This document shows, piece by piece, positions 1,168-55,334 of a DNA stretch of 64,000 nucleotides. Where the stretch lies: contig DS999225.1 in assembly GCA_000156295.1 (NCBI GenBank), positions 192,852 to 256,851 of the forward strand, written 5' to 3'. The stretch is from a marine gamma proteobacterium HTCC2148 (GTDB lineage Bacteria; Pseudomonadota; Gammaproteobacteria; Pseudomonadales; Halieaceae). Position numbers and translations under genes: made by a program. Numbering within the stretch: position 1 is the stretch's first letter; each line of letters begins with the position of its first letter. The notes beneath the pieces were generated by a model that had not been told where the DNA came from, did not search any database, and was given only the letters and a program-made list of their open reading frames with translations.

Positions 1168-3930
1168 TCAAGTCGTTATAACCAGGCGCAAAGCCTGCAG
1201 CTGCAGACTGGCGTGTTGTATGTGAATCGCACATTCCTCGATGCGATAGCGCAGGTGCTCCAGTTCTTCCTCCCGGATCGCGGGGTTGAGTTGTCGCAGC
1301 GCTTCGAGTCGTGCCAATTCTGCGCCCAGATCATTGCGCATCCGATCCTCGGCTTCCGTTAACACTGCTTTAAGCTTTGCCTCTGCCTGGGCATTGGCAA
1401 GGCTCATCTTGGCATCCACTTCCTTGTGAACCTGTTTAATGATGGCCAAGGCCGTGGCTTTTTTGACCTTTTCTACCAGCGCATTCAAACGCTCATGAGG
1501 CACCAGCTCAGCCAGTTGCTTGCCGCGAGCATCTACCAGCAGTCGGATTGGCGACAGGGGCAGGAAGCGTTCTACCTGCAGCGCTTTTGGCGCTACACAG
1601 TTGATGGTGAACACGGCCTCGAGCAACATGGTACCCGCGGGAACACCCTTCAATTTCAGCGTTCCGATGGCGGCATTACCCAGCTCAGTGGAGTACACCA
1701 TTTCCATGGCTTCCTGGATCATCGGGTGCTCCCAGGTAACAAACTCCATATCTTCCCGGGACAGGCCTTTTTCCCGGCTGAAGGTAACAGTCGTGCCTTC
1801 TTCGCCTACATAGGGAAAGTGTCCGGTTAGCATGTGCTCCGAGGGACGCAGGATCAGCGTATGCTCGGAATGAAATTCCTGGTCGACACCAAAAGCCTCG
1901 CACAGTGCTTCCAGATAGTTTTCCAGTGTGTCCCCCGACTCCAGGGACTCGATTTCCTCTATCAGAGTCTCGGCAACTTCACGCTTGCATGAGTTTCTTT
2001 CGAGCAGTCGGTCGCGGCCTTCACGTAGCTCGTCTCTGGTGCGCAGGGTGAATTCAGCGGAGTCAGTTAGCAGTTCATCAAATGCTGCCGTTCGCTGCTC
2101 CAGCTGGGGCAACAAGCGCTGTTGAAAGTTCTGAAAAATCATGTAGCCAGCCGAGCAGGAATCGCGGAACAGGTCTAAACCCCTGTCATACCAGTCCAAC
2201 AGGGTTTCCTGGGCACTACCCTGGAGGTAGGGCACGTGGATTTCGACGTCATGGTCTTGGCCGATGCGGTCCAGGCGACCGATTCGCTGTTCCAGCAGGT
2301 CTGGATTCAGCGGCAGATCGAACAGGATAAGGTGATGAGCAAACTGAAAATTACGACCCTCACTGCCGATTTCCGAGCACACCAGGGTTTGAGCTCCTCC
2401 GGTTTCGTCCGCAAAGTAGGCGGCCGCGCGGTCCCGTTCAATAATAGACAGAGCCTCATAGAAAGCCGCCGAACGAATGCCCGCGCGCATATGCAAGTGA
2501 TGCTCCAGTGCAACAGCGGTGCTGGCATGAGCGCAAATGATCAGCACTTTTTCCGGGCGCAGTGCCTTGAGCGTTGTTTCCAGCCAGTCTACCCGCGGAT
2601 CGAAGTCCAGCCAGCTGTCGTCAAAGTACGGTAGCTCCGGGTGCAGGCGTTCTTCTAATTCGACCACAGCGTGCTCGTATTGCTCAGGCTGTGGCAACGG
2701 ATAACGGTGCAGGTGACGTTGAGGGAACCCTTCTACTGCGGCGCGAGTGTTGCGAAACAACACTCTTCCCGTGCCGTGGCGGTCCAGTAATTGCTCGATT
2801 AGTTGCGCCGGTGGTTGGCTGGCGTCGAGATCTTCCGGTAAGTTGCTGGGCATTTCTCCGCGATCCAGGGCATCAGTCATTTCACTGAGCGCACGAAATT
2901 GGGTCTCTTCTTCACGAAAGCTTTCCAGGTCGTGGAAGCGAGAGGGGTCAAGCAAGCGCAGCCTGGCGAAGTGGCTGGCCTGACCGATCTGCTCAGGCGT
3001 TGCGGTGAGCAGTAACAAGCCTGCGCTGCAAGTAGACAGTGCTTCAACGAACCCGTAGTCCTCACCCGCTTCATCCTCAGACCAATGCAGATGATGGGCC
3101 TCGTCGACCACAACCAGATCCCAGCCCGCTGCCAACGCCATTTGCTGAAGTTCGTCCCTGCCTTCAAACATATCAAGACTGCATAGAACGAGTTGTTCGG
3201 CTTCAAAGGGATTGCCTTCGGACATCTCTGCCAGGCGATCTGCGTCGAACAGTGAAAAGTGCAGGTTAAAGCGCCGTAACATCTCCACCAGCCACTGATG
3301 CAACAGGCTGGGAGGTACTAATATAAGCGCCCGTGTGGCTCGCCCAGTGAGTAACTGCTGGTGAATTATCATGCCAGCCTCGATGGTCTTGCCCAGGCCG
3401 ACCTCATCTGCCAGCAGCACTCTTGGAGCGTGCCGTTGGCCTACCTCATTGGCGATATAAAGCTGGTGATGGAGCAGGCTGGTGCGCGAGCCCATCAGTC
3501 CGCGGGCTGCGCTACCCTGCAATCGGTTGGTGTGTTGCAAGGTCGCAACTCGTAGGGCGAAATCCTGGTTCTTGTCGAAGTGGCCATTGAGTAAGCGCTG
3601 CTGTGGGGTGGTGAGTTGAACAAAAGCGTCCAGCTCTAGTTCAGAGACCACAAGCTGCTGATCGTGGTGGTCAGTGCCAGTGTACATGAGCAGGCCATGA
3701 TGCTCGTTGATTGCAGAAACAGTGAGCTCCACACCTTCAACGGTGCTGATATGGTCTCCTTCTTTAAACCGCAATCGAGTTAAGGGCGCATTTTCGCTGG
3801 CGTAGGTTCGCTCCTCGCCAACCGCGGGAAAACTGAGTGTAATTCTGCGCGGCTCGACATCGACGACGATGCCCAGCCCCAGTTGTGCGTCAGCGTGGCT
3901 GACCCAGCGCTGTCCTACCAGGTATTCCAT
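1168..3930 (-). CDS. rapA: RNA polymerase-associated SWI2/SNF2 ATPase RapA (HepA)
   Basis: A 920-residue protein (E. coli RapA is 968) that recycles stalled RNA polymerase by ATP-driven translocation. The N-terminal ~110 residues match the two RapA Tudor-like domains. The SNF2 helicase core has Walker A DEVGLGKT (about 175-182) and Walker B DEAH (about 276-279). The second helicase lobe carries the SEIGSEGRNFQFAHHLILFDLP and QRIGRLDRIGQ motifs near residues 470-530. The C-terminal ~350 residues match the RapA-specific domain. The start ATG overlaps the stop of the upstream tatD-like gene as TAATG, so translation is probably coupled. Assignment is secure. Confidence 0.96.
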   Translation of the reverse strand: MEYLVGQRWVSHADAQLGLGIVVDVEPRRITLSFPAVGEERTYASENAPLTRLRFKEGDHISTVEGVELTVSAINEHHGLLMYTGTDHHDQQLVVSELELDAFVQLTTPQQRLLNGHFDKNQDFALRVATLQHTNRLQGSAARGLMGSRTSLLHHQLYIANEVGQRHAPRVLLADEVGLGKTIEAGMIIHQQLLTGRATRALILVPPSLLHQWLVEMLRRFNLHFSLFDADRLAEMSEGNPFEAEQLVLCSLDMFEGRDELQQMALAAGWDLVVVDEAHHLHWSEDEAGEDYGFVEALSTCSAGLLLLTATPEQIGQASHFARLRLLDPSRFHDLESFREEETQFRALSEMTDALDRGEMPSNLPEDLDASQPPAQLIEQLLDRHGTGRVLFRNTRAAVEGFPQRHLHRYPLPQPEQYEHAVVELEERLHPELPYFDDSWLDFDPRVDWLETTLKALRPEKVLIICAHASTAVALEHHLHMRAGIRSAAFYEALSIIERDRAAAYFADETGGAQTLVCSEIGSEGRNFQFAHHLILFDLPLNPDLLEQRIGRLDRIGQDHDVEIHVPYLQGSAQETLLDWYDRGLDLFRDSCSAGYMIFQNFQQRLLPQLEQRTAAFDELLTDSAEFTLRTRDELREGRDRLLERNSCKREVAETLIEEIESLESGDTLENYLEALCEAFGVDQEFHSEHTLILRPSEHMLTGHFPYVGEEGTTVTFSREKGLSREDMEFVTWEHPMIQEAMEMVYSTELGNAAIGTLKLKGVPAGTMLLEAVFTINCVAPKALQVERFLPLSPIRLLVDARGKQLAELVPHERLNALVEKVKKATALAIIKQVHKEVDAKMSLANAQAEAKLKAVLTEAEDRMRNDLGAELARLEALRQLNPAIREEELEHLRYRIEECAIHIQHASLQLQALRLVITT

Positions 3931-4745
3931 TAAGCGTTCCCGAAAAATAAAGTCTGACTATTACGGTAGACCTGTCCCAGCAGTTCTTCCACTTCCATCT
4001 GCATTGTTTCAGCTACCTGCTCAGCAATAAAAGGAAGATAGTATGAGGCGTTAGGACGGCCGCGGTAAGGCACGGGGGTGAGATAAGGCGCGTCCGTTTC
4101 CAATAGCGCCTGCTTTACGGGGGTGGCTGCGATGACTTCACGCACGTTGTCAGCCCTGTTGAAAGTGGAAATGCCGTTGAAGCCCAGCATAAAACCTTCG
4201 CCTAAACAGTATTGGGCCAACTTCATGCCCGAGGTAAAGCTGTGTATGACGCCCTTGTTAGGCAGGCGACCGCTGAAGTTGGCTAGAATGGCGCGGGTGT
4301 CTTCATCGGCATCGCGCGTATGAATAACAACGGGAAGCTGCAAATCCACTGCAATCTGAAGCTGTTGCTCAAATACTTTGCACTGCACCGCGCGGTCAGC
4401 GTGATCATAGAAATAGTCCAGGCCAATCTCGCCAACTGCCAGCAGTCGCGCGTCGGTTTTCAGGTTTTCTCGAATGCGGCTTTCAACACCGTCATCGTAG
4501 TGCTCTGCCTCGTGCGGATGTATGCCCTGGGTGCCCCAGATATCTGTGGCGCTATTGGCCAGCGCCTTGACAGTGTCCAGATTGTCGGGAGAGACGGCGA
4601 TGGTAATGATTTTTTCAACGCCTACATCCCTGGCTTTATCGAGGGTCTCCGTTAGTTGATCACCTTGCAAGTAGTCCAGGTGGCAGTGAGTCTCGATGAT
4701 AGGCGTTTTAAAACGGGGGATTTCGCGACGTTTTTTCTTGCTCAT
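3930..4745 (-). CDS. TatD family metal-dependent hydrolase
   Basis: A 271-residue TIM-barrel metallohydrolase of the TatD/YcfH/YjjV family, cytoplasmic, with proposed nuclease or deacylase activity. Metal ligands are visible: HxH at residues 20-22 (THCHLD), the Glu of AVGEIGLDYFY, the His of PVVIHTRDA, and Asp in LETDAPYLTP. The frame stays open up to 4862. The ATG at 4745 (MSKKKRREIP) was chosen because homology begins shortly after it and the longer form would overlap the upstream LysR gene end. Its stop overlaps the rapA start. The exact member (TatD, YcfH or YjjV) is not decided. Confidence 0.88.
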   Translation of the reverse strand: MSKKKRREIPRFKTPIIETHCHLDYLQGDQLTETLDKARDVGVEKIITIAVSPDNLDTVKALANSATDIWGTQGIHPHEAEHYDDGVESRIRENLKTDARLLAVGEIGLDYFYDHADRAVQCKVFEQQLQIAVDLQLPVVIHTRDADEDTRAILANFSGRLPNKGVIHSFTSGMKLAQYCLGEGFMLGFNGISTFNRADNVREVIAATPVKQALLETDAPYLTPVPYRGRPNASYYLPFIAEQVAETMQMEVEELLGQVYRNSQTLFFGNA

Positions 4746-4765
4746 GGCTGGCTCGGTTGGATCGT

Positions 4766-5749
4766 TTACCGGTGCTGGGCCGCGCCGGCCGCAACTCGCT
4801 GTCGGAGCTTGCGGGGTTGGGTTGGACGCAGCTCGCGGATGGTACAGGTGATCTCTTCCCATAGCCAGTTGTGTAAGGGAGAGTTTTCTGTTCTTTGATG
4901 GGCCGCAAGAACATAATTCACGCTGCTATTTCCTGTGCGCGGCACTGGCAGTGCTGTAATGCCGTGACTGATACTTTCGTTCTGGGTCAGAAAAGCCGGA
5001 CCCAGCATATAATAATCGGTGTTACGCAGTACCTCCATCGCGGTCATCAGGTGCGATATTTCCAACGATCCTCGAGTGTTGGTGCCAAGGCCGTCAAATA
5101 AGTCTTCACCAGCCTTCACTTGCAACTGCTCCCGGTCAGAAACGTAAAGGCGCACCACCGGGTAGTTAGCCAAGTCTGCCAGACTGATATTACCGGCTTG
5201 TAACGGGTGGTTTTCGCGGATTAGCAACACCGGTGGGCTACTCCCCAGGTCTATGGTGCGAAAGTCTGGACTGTAATGCTGATGTCGAATGTGTACAGCG
5301 AAATCAAGCTTGCCCAGGGCGAGCTGCTCTAGCTGATTTTCTACCCGGGTGACAATGCGCAGGTGTAGGTTTGGCGCTTGCATCTGAAGGCGTTTTGCCA
5401 GAGTCGGCAGCAGGGCGACACCGATGTACTCCGACAAGGCCAAGGTAATTTCAGTATCAATCAGGGCGGGGTTGAATGCCTGCTTAGAGACCAGCTGGCC
5501 AATGCCGGAGAGTATTTCGGTGAGCCTGTCAGTCAACTCGAGGGCTCTGGGTGTGGGCTGCATGCCGTGACTGGAGCGGGTGAATAGAGCGTCATCAAAT
5601 ACCGCCCTTAGCCTAGAAAGGGTCTTTGACATAGCGGGCTGAGTGATAAACAAGCGCTCTGCTGCTCTGGAGACGTTTCTTTCTTCTAGTAATACCTGCA
5701 ATGAAATCAATAAGTTAAGATCTATTTTTGCAAGTTCTTTAGTATTCAT
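4766..5749 (-). CDS. LysR family transcriptional regulator
   Basis: A 327-residue LysR-type regulator. The N-terminal winged helix-turn-helix is clear (residues ~8-65, NVSRAAERLFITQPAMSKTLSRLR), and a LysR substrate-binding domain follows (about 95-300). The C-terminal ~20 residues are basic and probably disordered. Similarity to the NodD/LeuO-like subgroup is suggested by the opening DLNLL-SLQVLLEE. It lies 20 bases upstream of the tatD-like gene on the same strand. A perfect FNR-type site (5796-5809) lies 47 bases upstream of its start codon, and a TATGAA hexamer at 5774-5769 sits about where a class II promoter would place its -10. Oxygen control is therefore possible. The target genes are unknown. 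Confidence 0.9.
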   Translation of the reverse strand: MNTKELAKIDLNLLISLQVLLEERNVSRAAERLFITQPAMSKTLSRLRAVFDDALFTRSSHGMQPTPRALELTDRLTEILSGIGQLVSKQAFNPALIDTEITLALSEYIGVALLPTLAKRLQMQAPNLHLRIVTRVENQLEQLALGKLDFAVHIRHQHYSPDFRTIDLGSSPPVLLIRENHPLQAGNISLADLANYPVVRLYVSDREQLQVKAGEDLFDGLGTNTRGSLEISHLMTAMEVLRNTDYYMLGPAFLTQNESISHGITALPVPRTGNSSVNYVLAAHQRTENSPLHNWLWEEITCTIRELRPTQPRKLRQRVAAGAAQHR

Positions 5750-5795
5750 AATAGTGATATGATTTTAGTTCATACCAAGCATAATAATAATACAT

Positions 5796-5809
5796 TTGAT
5801 GAATATCAA
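5796..5809. promoter_or_regulatory. perfect FNR/ANR box (TTGATGAATATCAA)
   Basis: The sequence is TTGAT-GAAT-ATCAA, an exact match to the FNR/ANR consensus TTGAT-N4-ATCAA. It lies between the LysR gene (start 5749, minus) and the candidate small RNA (plus). For LysR, a TATGAA hexamer lies about 29 bases from the box centre, near class II spacing. For the RNA, no good -10 lies at that spacing. Instead a TTGATG/TAAGCT pair with a 17-base spacer overlaps the box, which would suggest repression. The direction of control is open. The same window encodes an FNR protein. Confidence 0.6.
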
Positions 5810-5822
5810 GCCCTCTATTAAG

Positions 5823-5952
5823 CTATTGCCAACTCGAAACAGAAGCCTCAAATGCCGAGGCTGGCAATAGGCCCCGCGGGGCGTTGCAGATGGCAACCCA
5901 TCCAGGTCCAACAAGAGTTATTTTCGAACCCGCCTTTATGGCGGGTTTTTTT
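5823..5952 (+). ncRNA. candidate structured small RNA with intrinsic terminator
   Basis: A run of perfect inverted repeats fills this gap. CTATTGCC (5823-5830) pairs with GGCAATAG (5863-5870) and encloses AGCCTC/GAGGCT (5844-5849/5857-5862). The 12-base palindrome GCCCCGCGGGGC follows (5871-5882), then a GTTGC/GCAAC hairpin (5883-5887/5893-5897). An intrinsic terminator closes it (stem 5927-5934/5940-5947, then T's). No upstream plus-strand gene exists that this terminator could serve, so a separate transcript is implied. The size (about 110-130 nt) fits a bacterial sRNA. A perfect FNR box lies just upstream. No known Rfam family was recognised. The overlapping reading frame runs through the terminator and looks non-coding. 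Confidence 0.5.
5927..5952 (+). terminator. intrinsic terminator of the candidate small RNA
   Basis: An 8-base-pair stem AACCCGCC/GGCGGGTT with a TTTAT loop is followed by a run of T's on the plus strand. On the minus strand the stem is not followed by T's, so the terminator is directional and points away from LysR toward the 3' end of the WS/DGAT gene. Confidence 0.85.
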
Positions 5953-6063
5953 ATGGGTGTGCGCATGGCATATGCCGGCGACAGCGTGGATGGGTTTTTT
6001 GGGGGGACAGGAATACCCCAGGGCTCTATTGCACTGAGCCCCGGCCTTCCGCTTGGGGTGTGC

Positions 6064-7857
6064 TTAGTTTTGCAGCTTTGGCTTTACCTTGGGCCTGGCC
6101 GTTGCCTTGCGTTTGGCGGGGGCCTTCTTTTTTACAGGTGCTTTTTTGGCCGTCGCTTTCTTGGGGGCCGTTTTTGTCGGGGCTTTCTTTTTGGCTGCAG
6201 CCTTCTTCACCGGCGCCTTCTTCTTCACCGGCGCCTTCTTCTTCACCGGCGCTTTAGCCACCGCTTTCTTGCTCGCTGAAGTCTTGGCTTTTGCCGATGC
6301 TTTATTTGCGGAAGCAGACTGACTGGTTTTGGCCTTAGTTTTGGTTTTGGTTTTGGTTTTCGGTTTAGATTCCGCCGCGCGCGCACGGCGAGAAGCGTCT
6401 ACCTTGGCTTTCTTCTTGGTGGCGCCTTTACCATCCGCGCGGGTTGCGGCAGCATAAAGAGCCTCGTAAGACTCGACCAGGCAAGTGTGATAAAGCTCGG
6501 GGTCTGGCATGATGGTGCGATCACCCAATACCGAAAGAGTGACCTTGCCGGCGTAGCTGAAAACCGCGTGAAACAGGCCCATGCCTGGCGTCAGCACACC
6601 AAGACCGTAGTAATCGACCATCTTGGCGCCAGAGCAGTAGAGGGGAAAATCGGGCCCCATTACGTTGGTCACAACAGTGGAAATATTTACCGGCAGTAGT
6701 GAGGAGAGCTGGTTGCGTGACCAGATACCTGCGGCCGCTTTGGTGACGGCCGGGGAGAATGCGCCCGCAATTTTCAGCACATCAACCAGAGGACTCTTTT
6801 CGCCGCTTTCCTTGGCCTCAGCTGTAGACTGGGTAACAGCCATCAGCCTTTCCAGTGGATCGATAATATCCGTATGCAGCGATGAATAAACTGATCCCAC
6901 CTGATTGTTGTCGTCGGTTACCCCACGACGGGTACGCATGTTCAAAGGAATGCCAGCTGCAAGCGACCCCTCAGACGGCGCTTCGTCTTTTTTTGTCAGG
7001 TAGCTTTGTAGCGCGCCACCGACTATGGAAAGGGCCACGTCGTTGATGGTGACTCCGGCGGCGTTTTTGATGTCTTTGAATCCCTCTAGCGGAAATTCTG
7101 CTGCATCAAAGACCCGGTGCGGCCCCACCGCCCTGTTAAGAATAGTTTTGGGTGCGGATATGTCCGGTGCGGGAATCTGGTCGCGAGCAACGTTGAGTGC
7201 ATACTTGCCCAACCCGATGCTGTTTTTTACCGTGCCACGCAGTAGGCTTGCCGTGTTTTTAATGCTGTTAACTGAAGCTTTGGATAGTAACTCGGCCATG
7301 CTGGGCTCGATGTCTACCAGGCGAGGTTCTTCCACTTCTTCATCGGCAGGCGAGGGGTTAGGCACAAGATCATGAATCAGTGCCATGAAAGAAGAGCCCC
7401 CGGCGCCATCGACGAGGGAGTGGTGCATCTTGGTGTAAATGGCGAAACAGCCTTTGGGAAGACCGGGAATATTATCCAGTCCTTCGATAATATAGGCTTC
7501 CCAAAGCGGGCGGGACATGTCCAACGGGCGGGCGTGCAGTCGGGCAACCTGAATGCATAGCTGGCGCCAGTCGCCCGGCTCCGGCAGAGCGATATGACGC
7601 AGGTGGAACTCTACATCGAAGTTTGCGTCCTTTACCCAGTAGGGTCTATCCAGACCACCGGGTACTTCGATGAGACGTGTTCTGAACAGGGGCTGTTTGG
7701 AGAGACGTCGCTCAAAGCCTGATATAACATCCTTGAAACGGACGAATCCGTCCGGGGCGCTGGAGGGGTCATAAATGCCCAGCCCCCCAACGTGTTGGGG
7801 AGTATTGGTTTGTTCCAGATTGATAAAAGCGGAGTCTAGAATGCCTAACTGTTTCAT
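6064..7857 (-). CDS. WS/DGAT acyltransferase with lysine/alanine-rich histone-like tail
   Basis: Wax ester synthase/acyl-CoA:diacylglycerol acyltransferase, making neutral storage lipids from acyl-CoA and an alcohol or diacylglycerol. The catalytic HHSLVDG motif lies near residue 143 and the second conserved motif (NDVALSIVGG) near 275. A PLW motif sits just before the active site. The enzyme part ends near residue 470, the usual family length. About 120 extra residues follow, almost all Lys, Ala, Thr and Pro, with KTKTKTK and repeated KKKAPV units like histone H1 or AlgP tails. The tail DNA contains tandem repeats (6201-6252, 6339-6361). Such a tail could bind DNA or a charged surface. The core function is secure; the tail's role is unknown. 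Confidence 0.9.
   Translation of the reverse strand: MKQLGILDSAFINLEQTNTPQHVGGLGIYDPSSAPDGFVRFKDVISGFERRLSKQPLFRTRLIEVPGGLDRPYWVKDANFDVEFHLRHIALPEPGDWRQLCIQVARLHARPLDMSRPLWEAYIIEGLDNIPGLPKGCFAIYTKMHHSLVDGAGGSSFMALIHDLVPNPSPADEEVEEPRLVDIEPSMAELLSKASVNSIKNTASLLRGTVKNSIGLGKYALNVARDQIPAPDISAPKTILNRAVGPHRVFDAAEFPLEGFKDIKNAAGVTINDVALSIVGGALQSYLTKKDEAPSEGSLAAGIPLNMRTRRGVTDDNNQVGSVYSSLHTDIIDPLERLMAVTQSTAEAKESGEKSPLVDVLKIAGAFSPAVTKAAAGIWSRNQLSSLLPVNISTVVTNVMGPDFPLYCSGAKMVDYYGLGVLTPGMGLFHAVFSYAGKVTLSVLGDRTIMPDPELYHTCLVESYEALYAAATRADGKGATKKKAKVDASRRARAAESKPKTKTKTKTKAKTSQSASANKASAKAKTSASKKAVAKAPVKKKAPVKKKAPVKKAAAKKKAPTKTAPKKATAKKAPVKKKAPAKRKATARPKVKPKLQN
6201..6252. repeat. three 18-bp tandem repeats coding KKKAPV
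   Basis: The unit TTCACCGGCGCCTTCTTC recurs with an 18-base period about three times. It lies within the WS/DGAT C-terminal tail and encodes KKKAPV-type repeats. A second low-complexity stretch of TTTTGG hexamers at about 6339-6361 encodes KTKTKTK. Both are prone to copy-number change. Confidence 0.8.
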
Positions 7858-52730: not shown

Positions 52731-52744
52731 TTGATTGACATCAA
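52731..52744 (+). promoter_or_regulatory. perfect FNR/ANR box upstream of small ORF
   Basis: TTGAT-TGAC-ATCAA exactly matches the FNR/ANR consensus. Its centre is 29.5 bases before the -10 hexamer TATCAT (52767-52772), the spacing expected for a class II FNR-activated promoter with the site at about -41.5. The predicted transcript start is near 52779, so the transcript would lead into the small ORF at 52836. The fnr gene itself lies convergent just downstream. Confidence 0.75.
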
Positions 52745-52992: not shown

Positions 52993-53748
52993 TTAGCTGC
53001 CAAGATTTGCCATGTCCTTTAAACCCTGAGGATTCAGGATTTCAATTTCTTTATTGTCTACGCGTAAAACATCCATTTTTTGCATTCGGCTAAAGACCCG
53101 GGAGACCGTTTCAACGGTTAACCCGAGATAGTTACCTATGTCGACTCGGGACATAGGTAAGCGAAACTGGGTGGCGCTGAGTTTGCGCCGGGCGTTGCGG
53201 CCCGAGATACTAAGCATGAGTGCAGCAACGCGCTCATCTGCAGAATTTTTACTCAGCAGCGTGATCAATTGTTGATCTTCGGTGATTTCGCGGCTCAGAA
53301 GTTTGAAAAAGTGGCGCTGCAGGTTGGGCATCAGGGTGCTGAGTTTTTCGAGTGAAGCGAAGGGAATCTCGCAAACGGCAGCGGTCTCCAGCGCTTTGGC
53401 AGAGGACGCGTGCGCATTGTTGCTAATGCCGTCCATGCCAAGTATCTCCCCTGGAAAATAAAAACCGGTGACCTGTTCTTGACCATCGTCTGTCGTCTTG
53501 TAGGCCTTAATAGTTCCAGAGCGGACGGCGTACACCGATTGAAAATCGTCACTTTCCCGGTACAGATGCTGGTGCTTTTGCAAGGGTTTGCTTCGCTGGA
53601 TGATGTCGTCCAGCTGCTGGATATCATCGCTCTCTAATGCCAGGGGTAGGCAGATGCTGTTTAGGCGACAGTTCCCGCAATTAACCTGATAGTCATGAGT
53701 GCAGGGGTTGAAGGCAGTATCCTGAGCCTGTGTGAGATGAATCGTCAT
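52993..53748 (-). CDS. fnr: FNR/ANR-type oxygen-sensing transcriptional regulator
   Basis: A 251-residue Crp/Fnr regulator that binds an oxygen-labile [4Fe-4S] cluster. The cluster Cys pattern is complete: Cys24, Cys27, Cys33 (VNCGNCRLNSIC) plus Cys126 (AAVCEIPF), and Cys16 is an extra. The cAMP-binding-like domain follows, then the helix-turn-helix with VETVSRVFSRMQ, whose E-x-x-S-R matches FNR's specificity for TTGAT. The ATG at 53748 has AAGGAGAAG upstream. It lies 74 bases after hemN on the same strand, so an upstream FNR box may autoregulate it. ANR is the Pseudomonas name for the same protein. Confidence 0.95.
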   Translation of the reverse strand: MTIHLTQAQDTAFNPCTHDYQVNCGNCRLNSICLPLALESDDIQQLDDIIQRSKPLQKHQHLYRESDDFQSVYAVRSGTIKAYKTTDDGQEQVTGFYFPGEILGMDGISNNAHASSAKALETAAVCEIPFASLEKLSTLMPNLQRHFFKLLSREITEDQQLITLLSKNSADERVAALMLSISGRNARRKLSATQFRLPMSRVDIGNYLGLTVETVSRVFSRMQKMDVLRVDNKEIEILNPQGLKDMANLGS

Positions 53749-53822
53749 TTGCTTCTCCTTGCAATGCTTCGAGATTATAGACGATTTTTCCATCATTCTG
53801 TAATTCGATTTCTGTGCCAAAT

Positions 53823-55259
53823 TCATACAGTTGCTGAGAATTTAGGCGCAGATTCATCACCTTTATGGGCGCCCAAATATGCGTCAAAAAGCATACATAT
53901 ATTTCGCAAGAAGGGTCTCCCGCGCTTGGTCACACTGATCGTGTTTTCCGAAATCTCCAGTAATTGATCGGCGACCATTGGCGCCAGTTGATCCAGCTGC
54001 CGCTGGAACATGTGACTAAAGTCGATACCGAATTGGCGGTTGCAATCACTGATATCCAGTTTCAGCTCTGATATCAGTGTCATGATGATGTGTCGACGTA
54101 ACTTGTCATCATCGTTGACCCGGCAACCCCGGGTCACAGGCAGCGCGCCTGCATCCAGTAATTGGTAGTAAGCGTCCAGTTCGCGCTCGTTTTGGAGGTA
54201 GAAATCGCCAATCTGGCTGATAGAGGAAACTCCAAGCCCCAATAAGTCATCGGCCATGTGGAGGGAGTAGCCCTGGAAGTTGCGCTGCAAACGTCCCTCT
54301 CCCTGGGCAACGGCCAACTCATCTTGCGGCATTACATAGTGGTCCATCCCAATATGAAGGTAGCCAGCATCCTGCAGAGTGTGGCTGATGATTTCATGCA
54401 GCAGCAGCTTTTCGTTTGGTTCTGGCAGACTTAACCGATCGATGGCTCGCTGGCTGCTGAAGCGTTCCGGCAAGTGAGCATAGTTATAGCAGGCTATGCG
54501 ATCCGGGCGCAGAGAAATAACCTTGCCTAGCGTTTCAGTCATGGTATGGCGGTCCTGATGTGGCAGCCCATAGATCAGGTCAAAACTCAAAGATCGAAAA
54601 TTGTGAGCGCGAATGCAATCGACCAGTGACGCAATTTGTGGGTAGGACTGAACTCGGTTGACCGCTTTTTGCACCAGCGGATCAAAGTCCTGGATGCCAA
54701 GGCTGATTCGGTTAAAGCCGACGCCTTTTAGCAACGCGATGGTGCTGTTCTCAACAGTTCTTGGATCAATTTCAATAGAGTACTCGCGGTACCCCTTGTC
54801 CAGAAGGCGAAAGTGGCTCGCCAACAGGTGCATCAGCTCAGTGATTTGGGCGTGATCCAGGTAAGTGGGCGTGCCGCCACCCCAGTGCATCTGGGTGATG
54901 GGCCGCTGATCGCCAACCAGCTCAGACTGCAAAATAATTTCATGCTGTAGACTTTTCAGGTACTGCTGGGCGGCATTTTTTTTACGCGTTACGATTTTAT
55001 TGCAGGCACAGTAGTAGCAGATATCGCTGCAAAACGGCACGTGCAGGTAAAGCGACAGTGGTGCACGTTGATGATCACCATCGCTGTTTTGCCAGTCTCG
55101 GTACTGTTGCATCGGGAAGTCCGGGCGAAACTGGGGAGCGGTGGGGTAGGAAGTATAACGAGGGCCTTGGCTGGCATATTTTTTAGCCAGATTCATGTCG
55201 GCCTGATGTCTTGTGGCTACGGCGGTAGAAGCGACAAGGTCGGAGTGCATGGTGTTCAT
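53823..55259 (-). CDS. hemN: oxygen-independent coproporphyrinogen III oxidase
   Basis: A 478-residue radical SAM enzyme (E. coli HemN is 457) that decarboxylates coproporphyrinogen III in heme synthesis without oxygen. The cluster motif C-x3-C-x2-C is PFCSDICYYCACN (Cys77, 81 and 84). The Gly-rich GGGTPTYLD (SAM binding) and SFDLIYGLPHQ segments follow. The ATG at 55259 is preferred; the frame opens at 55334 but that would place the FNR box inside it. The box lies 62 bases upstream. It precedes fnr on the same strand. Confidence 0.96.
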   Translation of the reverse strand: MNTMHSDLVASTAVATRHQADMNLAKKYASQGPRYTSYPTAPQFRPDFPMQQYRDWQNSDGDHQRAPLSLYLHVPFCSDICYYCACNKIVTRKKNAAQQYLKSLQHEIILQSELVGDQRPITQMHWGGGTPTYLDHAQITELMHLLASHFRLLDKGYREYSIEIDPRTVENSTIALLKGVGFNRISLGIQDFDPLVQKAVNRVQSYPQIASLVDCIRAHNFRSLSFDLIYGLPHQDRHTMTETLGKVISLRPDRIACYNYAHLPERFSSQRAIDRLSLPEPNEKLLLHEIISHTLQDAGYLHIGMDHYVMPQDELAVAQGEGRLQRNFQGYSLHMADDLLGLGVSSISQIGDFYLQNERELDAYYQLLDAGALPVTRGCRVNDDDKLRRHIIMTLISELKLDISDCNRQFGIDFSHMFQRQLDQLAPMVADQLLEISENTISVTKRGRPFLRNICMLFDAYLGAHKGDESAPKFSATV

Positions 55260-55320
55260 CGGGGGATAAAGCTCTCGAATATATTGACAGTGACGATAAC
55301 AGTATCGGCACTGCCGGACG

Positions 55321-55334
55321 TTGATCTGAATCAA
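55321..55334 (-). promoter_or_regulatory. perfect FNR/ANR box upstream of hemN
   Basis: TTGAT-CTGA-ATCAA is an exact FNR/ANR consensus. Its centre lies 29.5 bases from a -10-like TATCGT (minus strand, 55298-55293), giving the class II layout with a predicted start near 55286, about 27 bases before the hemN ATG. It would switch on hemN, and probably fnr, when oxygen falls. Confidence 0.8.

Follow-up and report, generated by a model that had tools for sequence, protein, structure and literature searches.

A probable LysR-linked small-RNA gene of Halieaceae and its likely pairing with a CrcZ-like RNA

What lies between the LysR-type regulator gene and the WS/DGAT gene of the marine gamma proteobacterium HTCC2148, and what might it act upon? 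The window analysed here is a stretch of 64,000 nucleotides from this genome. A first-pass annotation, made from its letters, had described between the two genes a perfect FNR box, a block of inverted repeats and a strong terminator, read together as an unannotated small RNA (sRNA), perhaps oxygen-controlled like E. coli FnrS. The elements themselves are all present. The FNR-like box TTGATGAATATCAA (5796-5809) carries 10 of the 10 FNR consensus bases and is followed by an outer inverted repeat (CTATTGCC, 5823-5830, and GGCAATAG, 5863-5870), an inner repeat (AGCCTC, 5844-5849, and GAGGCT, 5857-5862), a GC palindrome (5870-5882), a further hairpin (GATGG, 5889-5893, and CCATC, 5898-5902) and an intrinsic terminator (AACCCGCC, 5927-5934, and GGCGGGTT, 5940-5947) with a T run to 5952. 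As had also been noted, no plus-strand gene lies directly upstream, both the LysR gene and the WS/DGAT gene being on the minus strand.

The proposed small-RNA unit and its predicted promoter

The features of the locus are as follows.
4766..5749, minus strand: LysR-type regulator gene (PF00126 and PF03466 above their cut-offs), adjoining the sRNA divergently and probably controlling it
5769..5808, no strand assigned: conserved divergent promoter element, made of the dyad TTCATACCAAGCATAAT (5769-5785), AATACATT (5789-5796) and ATATCA (5803-5808)
5796..5809, no strand assigned: perfect FNR-like box, found in this genome only and overlapping the predicted -35
5796..5824, plus strand: predicted sRNA promoter, with -35 TTGATG (5796-5801), a spacer of 17 nt and -10 TAAGCT (5819-5824)
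5831..5952, plus strand: proposed small RNA, a conserved unit of about 122 nt
5889..5902, plus strand: hairpin GATGG/CCATC, holding part of the seed
5898..5909, plus strand: seed CCAUCCAGGUCC, complementary to a CrcZ-like RNA
5914..5925, plus strand: U-rich stretch AGAGTTATTTTC before the terminator, conserved in an alignment of 15 sequences
5927..5952, plus strand: intrinsic terminator, with one pair doubly changed in 2 of 14 sequences
6064..7857, minus strand: WS/DGAT gene (TIGR02946), tail-to-tail neighbour of the sRNA unit

The block at about 5831-5952 on the plus strand is very probably a real, previously unannotated small-RNA gene. In many genomes, promoter, seed and terminator are kept next to this same LysR gene, bearing out the first-pass annotation on this point, and the fold of strand 5815-5955 beats 200 of 200 dinucleotide shuffles (z -3.82). 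The predicted promoter derives from its spacing and from a TANNNT column in relatives; a scan for consensus promoters did not list a plus-strand promoter at 5796..5824. The 8-bp outer repeat was considered as RNA structure and rejected: it is probably not an RNA stem, because it begins upstream of the implied start (about 5831) and is unseen in the aligned relatives. The GATGG/CCATC hairpin shows one double change (G-C to A-U) among 14 sequences and is lost in some genera, the seed being retained even there.

The columns of the divergent promoter element are conserved in the 15-sequence alignment and in most of 55 aligned homologs, suggesting that the element is likely to be a LysR-type binding site and that the sRNA is likely to be controlled by the neighbouring LysR protein. 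In GcvA-GcvB and OxyR-OxyS, the gene of a LysR-type regulator has a divergent Hfq-type sRNA gene, and here, too, the sRNA gene is divergent from a LysR-type regulator gene. However, the regulator belongs to another LysR branch, Rfam reports no similarity between the sRNAs, and the apparent target is another regulatory RNA. In keeping with an Hfq-dependent sRNA, the unit is intergenic, ends in an intrinsic terminator with a U run, and carries a conserved seed complementary to an unlinked RNA, the complementarity being weaker in most of group g12. The U-rich stretch is a possible Hfq-binding module, and an Hfq gene was found in 11 of 12 genomes searched, that of the window included.

In the window, every Rfam family, FnrS among them, stayed below its gathering score, and membership of the sRNA in any Rfam family was rejected, the 19 sub-threshold matches lying mostly over the terminator. 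For the LysR gene, none of the NCBIfam cut-offs was reached (best BsrA, 130.7 bits against 480 required). Its frame (4766-5749, minus strand) overlaps by 97 bases a TatD frame at 3930-4862 on the same strand, for which a later ATG is possible. The WS/DGAT protein has a long lysine/alanine/proline-rich, histone-H1-like tail (window 6064 to about 6480, minus strand), which begins past the matched domain, in the residues after about 471.

Distribution of the unit beside the LysR gene

A DNA search covered the window genome and 37 relatives, 38 genomes in all. It recovered the unit at E below 1e-12 in each of the 7 other members of the genus; at E below 1e-3 it found the unit in the equivalent place in 7 further genomes from 7 genera. 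Matches under 1e-3 in G013, G029 and G036 consist of the terminator only, that of G013 lying beside LysR. Across the 15 oriented sequences the conserved parts are the divergent promoter element, the TANNNT -10-like column, GATGG/CCATC, CATCCAGGTCC, the U-rich stretch and the terminator, and the 5' end AACTCGAAACA is kept in most of the genus.

Built from these 15 sequences, a covariance model for the 3' core scores at least 48 bits in 33 of 140 family (Halieaceae) genomes, and in all 33 a LysR ortholog lies divergently upstream (31 identified by tblastn, G060 and G145 by position). Weak model matches not beside LysR, namely those in G046, G019, G047 and G062 and the second match in G133, were left out. 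A WS/DGAT homolog occurs within 1.5 kb downstream in just 19 of 31 loci, and is therefore not an essential partner. Decay of the regulator is visible in G071, where LysR is reduced to a 27-aa match, and the LysR frame of G152 holds one stop.

Among 390 genomes of the order, 21 had matches at E up to 1e-4. The matches under 42 bits (11 loci, L066-L076, of which 9 are outside the family) have neither LysR nor WS/DGAT beside them and were rejected; five of the 11 are tRNA genes, and the rest resemble terminators or gene ends by eye. At the sensitivity of this search, the unit therefore seems restricted to the family. The LysR protein itself (E up to 1e-60) is found in 99 of the 140 family genomes, some matches of about 40% identity being paralogs. 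In g12, a GC stem with a T run stands upstream of LysR in 43 of 43 genomes inspected, many of them with a changed seed. At locus L270 (G065), the TatD start appears to pass almost straight into the region where LysR starts, as though LysR had largely been lost; the sRNA seed is retained there, and the sole LysR match in that genome is a paralog elsewhere.

The CrcZ-like RNA and its probable pairing with the seed

Exact complements of the seed core (TGGACCTGGAT) number 96 in the eight genomes of the genus, and 8 of these are the sRNA itself. All the remaining 88 sites were inspected and grouped by flank, which gave one large group, non-coding and conserved, in 7 of the 8 genomes; the window genome is the member missing from it. 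The other 81 sites fall into groups of at most two members, and 80 of them share bases with a sense open frame 80 codons or more in length. The conserved complementary place is the cbrB-pcnB interval, between a sigma54-type response regulator and pcnB. A wider search of the window genome, allowing up to 3 mismatches, returned 171 matches against 116 in a reversed control, and among the 29 contexts inspected, with 100 of the 171 matches listed, there was no convincing gene-start site.

At the partner locus the PcnB model is over its cut-off; the response regulator matches sigma54-activator models below their cut-offs only, so its name CbrB rests on position. In P. aeruginosa, crcZ occupies the same cbrB-pcnB position and has an RpoN promoter and A-rich motifs, according to PMC8395346. 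The partner found here is like Pseudomonas CrcZ/CrcY/CrcX in its cbrB-pcnB position, its sigma54-like promoter and its A-rich motifs (PMC8395346). It differs in staying under the Rfam gathering score, and the sRNA itself is not CrcZ-like. CrcZ is the only Rfam family listed at the partner loci of the genus, at 7 of 8 loci and below gathering; the best RF01675 match has 30.2 bits (E 2.9e-5) and that of the window genome 23.7 bits (E 0.0042), the gathering score of 95 bits being unmet.

Across the family, the site occurs in 100 of the 104 intervals inspected, and 47 hold two or more. A sigma54-like TGGCA-N7-TGC lies 74-87 nt upstream of the site in 95 of these 100 (1% in shuffles), and an A-rich run within 45 nt of it in 100 of 100. 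The interval further holds one or two GGACCUGGAUGGGG hairpins. A CrcZ-like RNA with a sigma54-like promoter and repeated hairpins appears widespread in Halieaceae (for example L204, in the window genome, L155 and L180). The CrcZ motif is also present in 18 genomes with no LysR hit, of which G071 alone has the sRNA; its presence in the 17 genomes where neither LysR nor sRNA was seen indicates that the motif is under a constraint of its own and that it either predates the sRNA or has a broader distribution. The window genome encodes two exonuclease-III-like proteins, either of which may be the acting Crc: the best PDB match of L366 is P. aeruginosa Crc (210 bits, 2.3e-61), and that of L365 a putative exodeoxyribonuclease (303 bits), the score of L365 to Crc (266 bits) being above that of L366.

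Complementarity and co-variation suggest that the sRNA is likely to pair with the CrcZ-like RNA. Ungapped duplexes were scored in the 80 genomes that have both loci. For 43 of the 44 genomes outside g12, the highest-scoring duplex falls on the CrcZ site, in 24 of these with no equal among 60 shuffles; within g12 it does so in 13 of 36, three having no equal shuffle. At site 1 the window genome has a single A-C mismatch, and 3 of 60 shuffles equal its score; its site 2 carries a bulge. Minimum-energy co-folding gains -19.5 kcal/mol in G002 and -14.4 kcal/mol in the window genome, values that carry no shuffle control and depend on an arbitrary CrcZ start, which happens to fall near A-rich motifs in G002 and G000.

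For co-variation, seeds were picked by a masked-consensus rule blind to the partner, and 59 of the 80 pairs were counted, 20 being left out for a weak seed match and one having no site. All 12 of the 12 pairs are standard in 33 of the 59 genomes, and at least 11 in 49. The two variable pairs are Watson-Crick in 48 and 47 genomes, against permuted means of 37.1 and 32.9, with 0 of 20,000 permutations as high; these permutations ignore kinship. Reduced to 30 distinct combinations, the matches are 22 and 20, reached by 93 and 234 of 20,000 permutations, kinship again being ignored. Own-genome duplexes have a mean energy of -30.7 kcal/mol versus -29.25 kcal/mol when permuted (0 of 5000 as strong), and in 46 of the 59 genomes the own duplex beats the mean of the swapped ones. 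Over the 30 combinations, doubly changed cells number 13 versus 5.1 expected (0 of 500 shuffles as high), and 2 of 500 shuffles equal the covariation score and 6 of 500 the count of paired cells. The remaining two of the five whole-structure measures are unexceptional against shuffles, 194 of 500 matching the number of pairs changed and 285 of 500 that of further types.

The paired changes themselves are A-U to G-C in G054 and G057 (2 of the 8 genomes of g35), in the g17 genome G023 and in five members of g12, and U-A to C-G in 11 g12 genomes. Because the controls ignore the tree, the occurrence of change in three separate genera is the main guard against shared descent. One variable pair is broken in 13 of the 59 genomes (G000, G009, G021, G116, G120, G128, G137, G140, G143, G145, G149, G150 and G152), a second site remaining intact in five of them (G009, G021, G149, G150 and G152). 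A one-base bulge, as judged by eye, would restore pairing in part of g12, G104 and G130 being examples.

Possible function and competing readings

The best explanation, which we regard as probable, is that a LysR-controlled, Hfq-type sRNA base-pairs with a CrcZ-like RNA and thereby tunes carbon catabolite repression. Its support in sequence comprises the conserved unit, the LysR linkage, the complementarity, the co-variation and the presence of Hfq, Crc-like proteins and PcnB; what is predicted is that the unit is transcribed, that LysR controls it, that its RNA binds Hfq and pairs in vivo, and in which direction it acts. A trans-acting sRNA would be made divergently from the LysR gene and under LysR control, and a sigma54 promoter would drive its partner from the cbrB-pcnB interval. 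The seed CCAUCCAGGUCC would pair with GGACCUGGAUGG, just 3' of the A-rich Hfq motifs and running into a G-rich CrcZ hairpin: CAGGUCC would nucleate the duplex, the GAUGG/CCAUC hairpin would open, and the duplex would then invade the CrcZ hairpin. Such pairing may lower, remodel or destabilise the CrcZ decoy and so free Hfq (with Crc), and in the predicted direction the LysR signal, when present, would thus lead through freed Hfq/Crc to stronger catabolite repression.

In Pseudomonas, CrcZ is a decoy that relieves Hfq/Crc repression, according to PMC8395346 and PMC5501646. Sponge or decoy RNAs that pair with sRNAs are represented by SroC acting on GcvB (a work cited in PMC8395346) and SkatA acting on PrrF1. 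The proposed pair shares with them the RNA-RNA control of a regulatory RNA; SroC and SkatA, however, are of a type in which an mRNA fragment faces a base-pairing sRNA, whereas the present sRNA would come from an independent gene linked to LysR and be set against an Hfq/Crc decoy. No sRNA was found described as pairing with CrcZ in the accessible parts of the CrcZ literature covered; a P. aeruginosa RIL-seq study (cited in PMC12802169) lies outside this coverage, so that study may already contain a CrcZ-sRNA pair. If true, a conserved sRNA directed against CrcZ would give the decoy a base-pairing regulator of its own and extend the CrcZ-type circuit to marine Halieaceae. The fuller proposal, to which we give slightly less than an even chance, is that Halieaceae have a dedicated LysR-linked anti-CrcZ sRNA that antagonises the Hfq/Crc decoy, has undergone compensatory evolution in several genera and sets a metabolite signal over CbrB-type control.

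Control of the sRNA by FNR, in a likeness of FnrS, was rejected as the main reading after conservation, genome count and the boxes of the window were weighed, and we hold it to be improbable. FnrS of E. coli is a short terminator-ended RNA near an FNR site, and the present RNA, too, is short, terminator-ended and near an FNR-like site. An fnr-type regulator gene (NF008365 over cut-off; 52993-53826, minus strand) adjoins hemN (53823-55334, minus strand) in the window, with two further perfect boxes nearby (52731-52744 and 55321-55334), and 3 of the 6 perfect boxes of the genome lie within these 64 kb, where shuffles give 0.09. However, six boxes in 4.33 Mb is about the number given by chance, and at the aligned position the box is 10/10 in 1 of 55 homologs, that of the window genome itself, the others scoring 3 to 8 (8 in 20 homologs; G023 was mis-positioned by the search expression, which missed 33 more homologs). 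The box also overlaps the predicted -35 and is centred near -28 from the predicted start; activating positions for FNR are at -41.5 or further upstream, so this is not one of them. Unlike FnrS, then, the unit has a box that is unconserved at orthologous promoters and no Rfam match over gathering, and the FNR link drawn by the first-pass annotation is unsupported: FNR control of the sRNA is unlikely. A species-specific local FNR input, probably repressive, is possible because the window carries the fnr-type gene and hemN near two more boxes.

The pairing might also work in reverse, with an abundant CrcZ-like RNA sponging an sRNA whose true targets are other mRNAs. This reading is unlikely, if much less so than an FnrS-like role. 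CrcZ is an Hfq sponge in Pseudomonas, as stated in PMC5501646, and the motif persists in the 17 genomes without a visible LysR or sRNA; however, besides the sRNA and the CrcZ place, the genus has no conserved non-coding exact seed-core site, and the remaining exact sites, nearly all overlapping sense frames (80 of 81), recur in no more than two places. A small-protein gene, or a functionless terminator remnant, is the least probable reading and would be a considerable surprise. A 26-aa frame with a ribosome-site-like AAAGGA does lie inside the unit in three g9 genomes, but no short frame of the window copy is accompanied by such a ribosome site, and seed and promoter are conserved where the frame is absent; the window unit showed no convincing coding potential. 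In the g9 loci L050 (G015), L051 (G061) and L268 (G060), the 26-aa frame begins MFIAATFGLYFALLGWIAWDE behind the AAAGGA, and of the six codons at which G015 and G060 differ, three differ silently; a dual-function RNA is possible there.
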